NCBI GenBank assembly: GCA_012798565.1
Contig: JAAZMX010000034.1
Coordinates: 1-35,260 of the forward strand
From: Candidatus Kuenenbacteria bacterium
Lineage (GTDB): Bacteria > Patescibacteriota > Patescibacteriia > UBA2196 > GWA2-42-15
Direction of reading: 5' to 3'
Length of the DNA: 35,260 nucleotides
Below, piece after piece: positions 24,699 through 26,650 of this stretch (position 1 is the first letter of the stretch; each line of letters begins with the position of its first letter). Below the pieces are notes generated by a model. That model did no database searches, had not been told where the DNA came from, and worked only from the letters and a program-made list of their open reading frames with translations. The position numbers were made by a program, and so were the translations under genes.

Positions 24699-25754
24699 AT
24701 GCTTAGCAAAAGCAACGCCAGCGCGGCAGCGATTTCCTACAAATCAATCATGCGGGTGGTTTGGGTTTTATTTTTATTGTTTTTTGTTTATCTGATCAGG
24801 GACATACTGGCGCTATTGTTCGTGTCGGTAATTTTTGCGGCGGCGATTGACCCTTGGGTTGATTGGCTGCAAAAATATAAGGTGCCGAGAGCGGTTTCTA
24901 TTTTGGTGATTTACGTGGTGTTGTTGGCGATGTTCAGTTTGATTGTGGTGATGCTCGTACCGGCAATGACCGAACAGATATTACAGATGATCAATAACAT
25001 CCCTGATTATTACGAAAAAATATCAGTGGGTATCCATACTTTGCAGCAGAATAGTAACGAGGGATTGACAACAGTCAGCAGTGATTCGGTGGTGACAACT
25101 TTGCAGACTTTGAGTTCCACCTTGGCGCAGGCGACCAAAAGTATCTTTGTGACAGTGGCCAGTATTTTCGGCGGCATTTTGTCGTTGTTCGTGGTTTTGG
25201 TGATGACTTTTTATATCACCGTGGAAGAAAGCGGGCTGAAGAGATTTCTAAAACATTTGGTACCGCCCAAACATCGGGAGTATATAATGGATTTGGTGGG
25301 CAGAATGGAAATGAAAGTGGGTTTGTGGCTCCGCGGACAATTGCTTTTGTGTTTTATCGTGGGAGTGATGGTTTATTTTGGTTTGTTGTTTCTGGGGGTG
25401 GAGTATGCTTTGCTCTTGGCTTTGGTAGCCGGTATTTTGGAAATTATTCCTTATTTCGGTCCATGGCTGTCGGGCTTGATCGCGGTTCTGGTGGTGTCGT
25501 CCGATTCCTGGACCAAGATTATTTTCGTGGCGGCCTGGTACTTTATCGTACAGCAATTGGAAAATCAGATTATCGTGCCCAAGTTGATGCAGAAAGTCGT
25601 GGGACTAAATCCGATTATTGTGATTATGGTGATTTTGATCGGCGCGAGGATCGGCGGTATTGTGGGCGGGCTTTTGGGCGTGCCGGTAGCGGCGGCTATC
25701 GCGGTGTATTTTGAGGATATGTTGAAGGAAAAACAAAAAGCGGAGAAAAGTTGA
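24699..25754 (+). CDS. AI-2E family transporter (PerM-like permease)
   Basis: Multi-TM; ILEIIPYFGPWLSGLIAVLV...VQQLENQIIVPKLMQKVVGLNPIIVIMVILIGARIGGIVGGLLGVPVAAAI. Confidence 0.93.
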   Translation: MLSKSNASAAAISYKSIMRVVWVLFLLFFVYLIRDILALLFVSVIFAAAIDPWVDWLQKYKVPRAVSILVIYVVLLAMFSLIVVMLVPAMTEQILQMINNIPDYYEKISVGIHTLQQNSNEGLTTVSSDSVVTTLQTLSSTLAQATKSIFVTVASIFGGILSLFVVLVMTFYITVEESGLKRFLKHLVPPKHREYIMDLVGRMEMKVGLWLRGQLLLCFIVGVMVYFGLLFLGVEYALLLALVAGILEIIPYFGPWLSGLIAVLVVSSDSWTKIIFVAAWYFIVQQLENQIIVPKLMQKVVGLNPIIVIMVILIGARIGGIVGGLLGVPVAAAIAVYFEDMLKEKQKAEKS

Positions 25755-25767
25755 TATAGTAATTAAA

Positions 25768-25797
25768 TTGACAGAAGAGATAAAGGTAGTATATAAT
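25768..25797 (+). promoter_or_regulatory. Sigma70-type promoter of the tRNA-Asn unit
   Basis: TTGACA (25768-25773), 18-nt spacer, TATAAT (25792-25797). Confidence 0.85.
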
Positions 25798-25806
25798 AAC
25801 CACATT

Positions 25807-25866
25807 ATGCAAAGATTAACCAACAATTTCAATAATAACAATAATAACCGCTGGCGGGTTGGTTAG
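25807..25866 (+). CDS. Asn-rich leader peptide MQRLTNNFNNNNNNRWRVG*
   Basis: ATG CAA AGA TTA ACC AAC AAT TTC AAT AAT AAC AAT AAT AAC CGC TGG CGG GTT GGT TAG; 8 of 9 successive codons are Asn; ATG lies about 10 nt after the -10 box. Confidence 0.75.
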   Translation: MQRLTNNFNNNNNNRWRVG

Positions 25867-25896
25867 TTTTGAAATAGAAAGACTGACGAACCCGCC
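25853..25896 (+). promoter_or_regulatory. Predicted antiterminator hairpin
   Basis: GGCGGGTT-g-GTTAGTTTT (25853-25870) pairs with AAGACTGAC-g-AACCCGCC (25879-25896): 17 pairs including two G-T wobbles and one G-G mismatch, 8-nt loop. Confidence 0.75.
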
Positions 25897-25915
25897 CAAA
25901 GAGAGGCGGGTTTTT
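25889..25915 (+). terminator. Intrinsic terminator immediately upstream of tRNA-Asn, mutually exclusive with the antiterminator
   Basis: AACCCGCC (25889-25896) / GGCGGGTT (25905-25912) then T run to 25915; the 5' arm is shared with the antiterminator. Confidence 0.8.
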
Positions 25916-26020
25916 AAATCCCTAGTCGTGCTCCTCTGTAGTTCAAAGGTAGAACGCTACGCTGTTAACGTAGATGTTGTAGGTTCGAGTCCTACCGGAG
26001 GAGCAGGACGAGGGATTTTT
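25916..26020 (+). terminator. Extended pre-tRNA stem that also looks like the 3' terminator
   Basis: AAATCCCT (25916-25923) pairs with AGGGATTT (26011-26018) flanking the tRNA, followed by TT; the 3' arm ends in T5. Confidence 0.6.
25932..26003 (+). tRNA. tRNA-Asn (anticodon GTT)
   Basis: TCCTCTG TA GTTC AAAGGTA GAAC G CTACG CTGTTAA CGTAG ATGTT GTAGG TTCGAGT CCTAC CGGAGGA G; all arms pair; close to E. coli tRNA-Asn; CCA not encoded. Confidence 0.98.
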
Positions 26021-26089
26021 GATAATGGTTATTTGTGAAAATAGTTTATTTGGGATAAGATGAAATTAAAGGATATTAAGCTATTTATT

Positions 26090-26650
26090 ATGGAGTTTAA
26101 AAAATTGGAATTAAATAATTTGGAAGATATTCTTGAGATGGAAGAAAAAATGTATTGGCAGGGTAAAGAATGGCAGAAGCTTTGGCAAAAAGAGGCTAGG
26201 GATAAATTTAAGGAATTGATAAAAGATTATTTAATTAATTATCCCAATGGGTGCTGGGGGTTATTTAATACCACCGGGGAACTATTGGCAGTAGTAATTT
26301 TTACTAGGCTGAATAAGGTTAAGGCAATTCCTTATTTTCACAGGTTTAGTAATTATTTTGAGACGGCTGGTAAAATTATTTATGTACAAGTGTTTGCTGT
26401 AAAAAACAGTGAAAGTGAAGATAATTTAGCGGAGAAGATTTATGAGCAACTAGAGAGGGTGGCCAAGCATATTGGTGGACAAAAAGTAGCAGTATTAATT
26501 TATTCATCATTTTTGGAAGAAAAGATACTAAATAAGTTGGGTTATAAAATTGAGTACAATAATTTACAGTGGGAGATATATCCAGATAAGTTTGTGAATT
26601 GTAAAATATATACACGAACAGTAGATCAACGAGAAAACAATATTCATTGA
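26090..26650 (+). CDS. GNAT-like N-acetyltransferase
   Basis: MEFKKLELNNLEDILEMEEKMYW...GELLAVVIFTRL...YVQVFAV...LEEKILNKLGYKIEYNNLQWEIY. Confidence 0.65.
   Translation: MEFKKLELNNLEDILEMEEKMYWQGKEWQKLWQKEARDKFKELIKDYLINYPNGCWGLFNTTGELLAVVIFTRLNKVKAIPYFHRFSNYFETAGKIIYVQVFAVKNSESEDNLAEKIYEQLERVAKHIGGQKVAVLIYSSFLEEKILNKLGYKIEYNNLQWEIYPDKFVNCKIYTRTVDQRENNIH

Follow-up and report, generated by a model that had tools for sequence, protein, structure and literature searches.

A probable ribosome-mediated attenuator that targets the gene of the tRNA-Asn it would sense in Patescibacteria

The window (the whole 35,260-nucleotide stretch of DNA analysed here, which is contig 65 of a Candidatus Kuenenbacteria genome of 1.06 Mb and an estimated completeness of 100%) carries a short, asparagine-rich open reading frame (ORF) and two competing RNA hairpins in front of a tRNA-Asn gene. 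We interpret this arrangement as a ribosome-mediated transcription attenuator that controls production of the very tRNA it senses, a reading to which we assign a probability of about 0.87. Its parts are conserved among relatives, the pairing arms covary, the geometry of the leader stop is maintained, and the whole is linked exclusively to one type of tRNA-Asn. A wider proposition, which we also hold to be probable, is that of a closed homeostasis loop in which the decoding rate of a tRNA's own codons controls its gene through a leaderless peptide, across much of one class of Patescibacteria and for Asn only. Some genomes have no second gene for this isoacceptor, which makes the attenuated one essential. 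Such is the case in the source genome, where one of 43 tRNA matches (42 above the gathering score) is a tRNA-Asn and no other was found, as well as in the one-contig genome G148.

All features of the window described below lie on the forward strand. A sigma-70-type promoter, TTGACA-N18-TATAAT (25768-25797), agrees with the consensus at 12 of 12 positions in a promoter scan and ranks first of five promoter-like sites within 2 kb; its -35 box (25768-25773) and -10 box (25792-25797) are separated by an 18-nt spacer. The leader peptide ORF, MQRLTNNFNNNNNNRWRVG (25807-25866; ATG 25807-25809, TAG 25864-25866), starts only 9 nt past the -10 box, making it essentially leaderless, and lacks a Shine-Dalgarno motif. 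Eight of its 19 codons encode Asn, and the run proposed as the sensor (25822-25848; AAC AAT TTC AAT AAT AAC AAT AAT AAC) has Asn at eight of nine consecutive codons. The tRNA-Asn(GUU) gene itself (25932-26004; ARAGORN; Rfam RF00005, 70 bits), which has what we term a type B D-arm, begins 16 nt after the U-tract of the terminator described below and 19 nt after its stem. A 21-nt inverted repeat found by inverted-repeat search (25916-25936/25998-26018) extends the acceptor stem of the tRNA and is followed by T5 (26016-26020), the whole spanning 25916-26020. Together these probably form a terminator or processing structure, at which a monocistronic tRNA transcript would end near 26020. An AI-2E family transporter gene lies upstream of the leader, and a 196-aa ORF (26060-26650), followed by mnmA, lies downstream of the tRNA. 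This ORF has no match in Pfam and, by eye, resembles a GNAT-type acetyltransferase.

Between the leader ORF and the tRNA, three RNA arms allow two alternative structures. Arm 1, GGCGGGTT (25853-25860), overlaps the end of the ORF and was recognized both by folding and by its covariation with arm 2 across loci; it is the 5' arm of a predicted antiterminator hairpin (25853-25896; arms 25853-25870 and 25879-25896; -28.6 kcal/mol). Arm 2, AACCCGCC (25889-25896), can pair either with arm 1 or with arm 3, a second copy of GGCGGGTT (25905-25912), the latter pairing giving an intrinsic terminator of the form AACCCGCC-loop-GGCGGGTT plus a U-tract (25889-25915, U-tract 25911-25915; predicted -15.4 kcal/mol). 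Antiterminator and terminator thus share an arm and are mutually exclusive, one of the criteria by which attenuators are recognized. The predicted folding energy of the leader RNA is -35.4 kcal/mol, whereas dinucleotide shuffles average -18.8 (z=-5.4) and none of 200 reached the native value; the full leader is predicted to adopt the antiterminator form. The terminator is missing from the output of a generic terminator scan, while the hairpin is nonetheless plain in the sequence and in the inverted-repeat listing; apparently, the loop-length and T-count rules of the scan rule out a stem in which the final U's are paired with A's. At the gathering score, Rfam has no match in the leader region, the tRNA being its sole match in the window, and the T-box covariance model (RF00230) likewise has no match there. 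The preliminary description of this DNA had proposed the promoter, the 19-codon ORF and its Asn run, all of which we recovered in identical positions, and its antiterminator-type hairpin, intrinsic terminator and tRNA-Asn(GTT) 16 nt further on were confirmed by folding, ARAGORN and Rfam.

Genes for tRNA-Asn in related genomes were gathered by similarity or by an anticodon-arm pattern, the leader playing no part in the selection; loci from the pattern list were chosen on the tRNA sequence alone, their upstream regions being unseen at that point. The D-arm divides these genes into type A (GTAGCTCA..GAGC) and type B (GTAGTTyA..rAAC). An ATG-started Asn-run leader precedes 37 of 39 type B genes, as against 0 of 44 of type A (Fisher p=1.4e-21), and in the two remaining type B loci, L106 and L124, the ORF that holds the Asn run begins with a start codon other than ATG. 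Genomes holding both types (G014, G039, G241, G276, and G072) have the leader on type B only. The earlier suggestion that Asn-run ORFs might precede the tRNA-Asn genes of relatives is thereby borne out for type B. That the type A genes of close relatives manage without a leader was counted against the attenuator reading.

The leaders of type B occur in about 17 families (by family handle) of one Patescibacteria class; these leader-bearing Patescibacteria, tiny and largely uncultured bacteria, belong to lineages of ABY1 type. When GTDB species genomes were scanned for the combined pattern of leader and tRNA, 39 stretches were returned, about 30 of which have the full architecture of ORF and terminator. 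These are nearly all Patescibacteria (Magasanik-, Falkow-, Kuenen-, Komeili-, and Kerfeldbacteria), as well as two WS6 genomes which carry a different tRNA-Asn. In a phylum-wide sample, L184 (MVLFNLNSNNNLNSSV with a terminator) represents one more probable case outside the class, and L183 is again of a WS6 type; three cases elsewhere in the phylum, beyond the roughly 17 families, are considered likely. Scan matches in Klebsiella, Bacilli, Erysipelotrichaceae, Chitinophagaceae, Legionellales, and one Saccharibacteria genome were without the architecture and were discarded as chance. One genome, G288, has two copies of the unit of leader and type B tRNA-Asn (L134/L239 and L135/L238), with the peptides MKNLRNNNSNNNRLQKIG and MKNLRNNNSNNNCLLKIG.

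Inside the Asn runs of 55 loci, we counted 328 AAY codons versus 2 AAR, with 59 AAR outside the runs, and AAT and AAC are mixed within them. A run of cognate codons in a short, promoter-proximal ORF, a further criterion for an attenuator, is thus conserved before tRNA-Asn. Such selection at the level of codons lends indirect support to the proposal that the leader would be translated and that ribosomes would stall on its Asn codons when charged tRNA is scarce. The preliminary description had also raised the possibility of cognate-codon runs before other tRNA genes, and this was not borne out in the source genome and two relatives. Among the 40 tRNA genes analysed in the source genome, no other has a cognate leader with a terminator, and 79 further tRNA genes, nearly all from G148 and G042, yielded no credible cognate leader. 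One ORF with Leu codons (LLLNCLIL) and a weak, U-rich hairpin, located before a tRNA, was dismissed as a chance match, and N-rich ORFs before other tRNAs were limited to three weaker ones among 73. Genome-wide checks in the source genome, performed by pattern search, found no second short ORF with both an Asn run and a strong terminator.

Two further peculiarities of the tRNA genes were observed. In the source genome, an ORF ends directly 5' of the tRNAs Leu(caa), Gln(ttg), Glu(ctc), Val(cac), Ser(gga), Trp(cca), and Ala(ggc). By eye, the ORFs before these roughly seven genes look like GIY-YIG endonucleases, suggesting that endonuclease genes may settle beside tRNA genes in this genome. The other peculiarity is nesting: between inverted repeats, often CCTGCCCGCC/GGCGGGCAGG-like, an intact tRNA lies within a second tRNA gene of the same kind, which is split at the D-loop or anticodon. 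Nested tRNAs were seen at L037 and L038 among the tRNA-Asn genes of relatives and, in the source genome, at L004 (tRNA-Ile), L005 (tRNA-Thr), and L002 (tRNA-Ala); at L005 inserts resembling hairpins interrupt the outer tRNA-Thr in its D, anticodon, and T loops. A palindromic element that enters tRNA loops would seem to be at work.

The sequences of the pairing arms vary widely among loci (GGCGGGTT, GACCGGTC, TGACTGGCC, GCGAGCT, and others). Across 56 loci, the duplex of a locus's own arms 1 and 2 averages -14.2 kcal/mol, versus -8.7 kcal/mol with the arms permuted (z=-15.8, a value which overstates significance since only exact duplicates were removed and kinship between loci remains). The signal is gone at -44 to -14 from the stop (z=-1.2). 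When arm 1 was sought from -60 nt onward, 55 of 56 loci had it between -14 and +8 relative to the stop. The front of a ribosome reaches 12 nt from its A-site codon; by this measure, a ribosome positioned on the stop would overlie 98% of arm 1 on average and no less than 60% in any of the 55 loci, and every locus has three or more Asn codons at which a ribosome would leave arm 1 free. This calculation limited arm 1 to -14 to +16, a limit which the wide search shows to matter little. A third criterion for an attenuator, a stop codon so placed as to block arm 1 while the Asn codons spare it, therefore describes all 55 measurable loci, in keeping with the earlier proposal that a ribosome at the TAG would rest on the antiterminator arm. 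The conservation asked about in the preliminary description is likewise evident: Asn run, frame, three competing arms, and stop geometry are kept while the sequence changes, even in distant loci.

The gap between terminator stem and tRNA is usually 6-23 nt across loci, so short that no other promoter fits there in the window and most loci; gaps are longer at L032, L036, L125, L128, and L134, which could accommodate a further promoter. In many loci a terminator directly follows the tRNA, so that these units would yield nothing else. The method used found no antiterminator at L118, and L036 has no nearby terminator.

A promoter with at least 9 of 12 consensus matches accompanies 54 of 59 leader loci, a proportion far above that of a shuffled control, and in 48 of the 59 such a promoter ends 5-12 nt 5' of the ATG. 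Motifs resembling a Shine-Dalgarno sequence are present in just 3 of 59. Given this spacing and the rarity of such motifs, the leader ORF is probably translated as a leaderless mRNA. The leader stops of these 59 loci comprise 28 TAG, 18 TAA, and 13 TGA, a share of TAG that appears large given the AT-richness of these genomes. The start of arm 1 frequently falls within or just past the stop, which may favour TAG.

Judging from this architecture, we propose the following mechanism. The transcript would start at, or a few nucleotides before, the leader ATG, with a ribosome trailing the polymerase. Where Asn-tRNA-Asn is ample, the ribosome would pass the Asn codons, reach the stop, and cover arm 1, leaving arms 2 and 3 to pair and the polymerase to terminate before the tRNA gene. 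Where it is scarce, the ribosome is expected to stall on the early Asn codons with arm 1 free; arms 1 and 2 would then form the antiterminator, the polymerase would read through, and tRNA-Asn would be made. We thus infer that the leader is translated, that stalling depends on Asn, and that scarcity of Asn-tRNA raises transcription of tRNA-Asn. In the window, the absence of translation should favour the antiterminator (-28.6 versus -15.4 kcal/mol predicted), so that the default would be ON, arguably a sensible setting for an essential tRNA. The net effect would be a negative-feedback homeostat for tRNA-Asn. Scarcity may arise from a shortage of the tRNA, from insufficient charging, or from damage to the tRNA, and more synthesis would directly answer the first and the last of these. 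Extra uncharged tRNA would be of no help if asparagine is limiting, a point against the attenuator reading, and the signal may therefore be tRNA supply or decoding rate, not amino-acid supply. Most likely, the cell measures the reading of Asn codons and makes more tRNA-Asn when that reading is slow.

Several other explanations for this arrangement may be considered. The attenuator might sense overall translation of the leader, through leaderless initiation or under antibiotic or other stress, the Asn codons serving as unstructured, A-rich filler. The run is indeed A-rich and unstructured, the untranslated state is likewise predicted to be ON, and uORFs sensing general translation stress are known (e.g. 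PMC12121999). However, the equally A-rich AAA and AAG are nearly excluded from the runs and common outside them, type A tRNA-Asn genes are without Asn runs, and, apart from the three weaker N-rich ORFs, no such run precedes any other tRNA surveyed. We consider sensing of this general kind unlikely. Very unlikely, in our estimation, is a scheme in which the hairpin simply ends transcription of the upstream gene or of a small RNA, the tRNA is expressed from a downstream promoter of its own, and the Asn ORF is incidental. The terminator does stand between a gene at 24699-25754 and the tRNA, and the few loci with long gaps would suit such an arrangement, but a consensus promoter separates the upstream gene from the ORF, the U-tract is only 16 nt from the tRNA, and ORF, antiterminator, and terminator are kept together over some 17 families with covarying arms.

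Still less plausible is a leader built for the gene of asparaginyl-tRNA synthetase (AsnRS), with the tRNA simply carried along in a leader-tRNA-asnS operon. Such an operon would be consistent with G129, G288, and G259, where the unit of leader and tRNA lies directly 5' of asnS. Against this, asnS in the window's genome is on a separate contig without an Asn leader, the upstream regions of asnS inspected directly in type A and type B genomes have none, and at L238 a promoter-like sequence apparently belongs to asnS itself. Most units of leader and tRNA stand outside asnS operons, and many terminate right after the tRNA. An Asn leader belonging to asnS was rejected, being absent from the asnS upstream regions inspected directly and seen only where tRNA-Asn happens to precede that gene. 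Also rejected was the idea that type B genomes are without AsnRS and form Asn solely on the tRNA, through GatCAB: AsnRS is above the cut-off in 35 of 37, and the two without it are 80-87% complete. GatB occurs in nearly all type B genomes. We give next to no credence to a chance or mutational artefact, namely an AAT microsatellite beside an unrelated hairpin. Although a pattern of four Asn codons is matched 19 times in the source genome and 16 times by its reversed control, the association with type B (p=1.4e-21) refutes this, and the runs mix AAT with AAC while start, stop, and arm register are conserved across divergent loci.

If the attenuator reading is correct, a single tRNA gene is regulated by the reading speed of its own codons, a way to match one tRNA to demand, and amino-acid-specific leader-peptide attenuation extends to Patescibacteria, on seemingly leaderless ORFs. 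The question would then arise as to why asparagine alone is so treated. Bacterial tRNA genes are usually regarded as being under the control of growth rate, the stringent response, and processing, while leader peptides rich in cognate codons control biosynthesis operons, synthetases, and transporters. In the open-access literature we found neither a tRNA gene controlled by a leader peptide of its own codons, which agrees with the preliminary description, nor a leader-peptide attenuator in candidate phyla. On this provisional basis, the target (a tRNA gene, by way of a leaderless ORF) appears undescribed. The "new regulatory class" which had been suggested as a possibility is thereby narrowed to a new kind of target; the mechanism is classical ribosome-mediated attenuation, with a leaderless ORF, three arms, a self-sensing loop, and restriction to Asn as its new details.

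The type B signature of the D-arm is shared by gammaproteobacterial tRNA-Asn genes (e.g. at the Klebsiella locus L151), which have no upstream Asn leader or attenuator, and the leader hence does not follow from the tRNA type in general. T-box riboswitches (RF00230) also answer the charging state of a specific tRNA by transcription antitermination. They bind uncharged tRNA through a specifier loop and T-box bulge, whereas here the coding run of Asn would be the sensor. The leader attenuators of Actinobacteria, such as the three-hairpin model for Corynebacterium ilvBNC (PMC11857589), are likewise non-Proteobacterial and resemble our candidate in hairpin logic, but control biosynthesis operons. 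His leaders of hisS/hisZ have been described in Bacilli, such systems having earlier been shown, to the knowledge of those authors, only in Proteobacteria and Actinobacteria (PMC2965389). With these, and with trp, his, leu, thr, ilv, and pheST of Proteobacteria, the Asn system has in common a short ORF in which cognate codons abound, an antiterminator and a terminator that exclude one another, an arm 1 at the stop codon, and an output tied to the amino acid sensed. It differs from them in its putatively leaderless ORF, in its occurrence in Patescibacteria, and in having three arms and no protector hairpin, from which expression is predicted to be ON when the leader is not translated. Their output is an enzyme or transporter, while the Asn system would regulate the tRNA itself.
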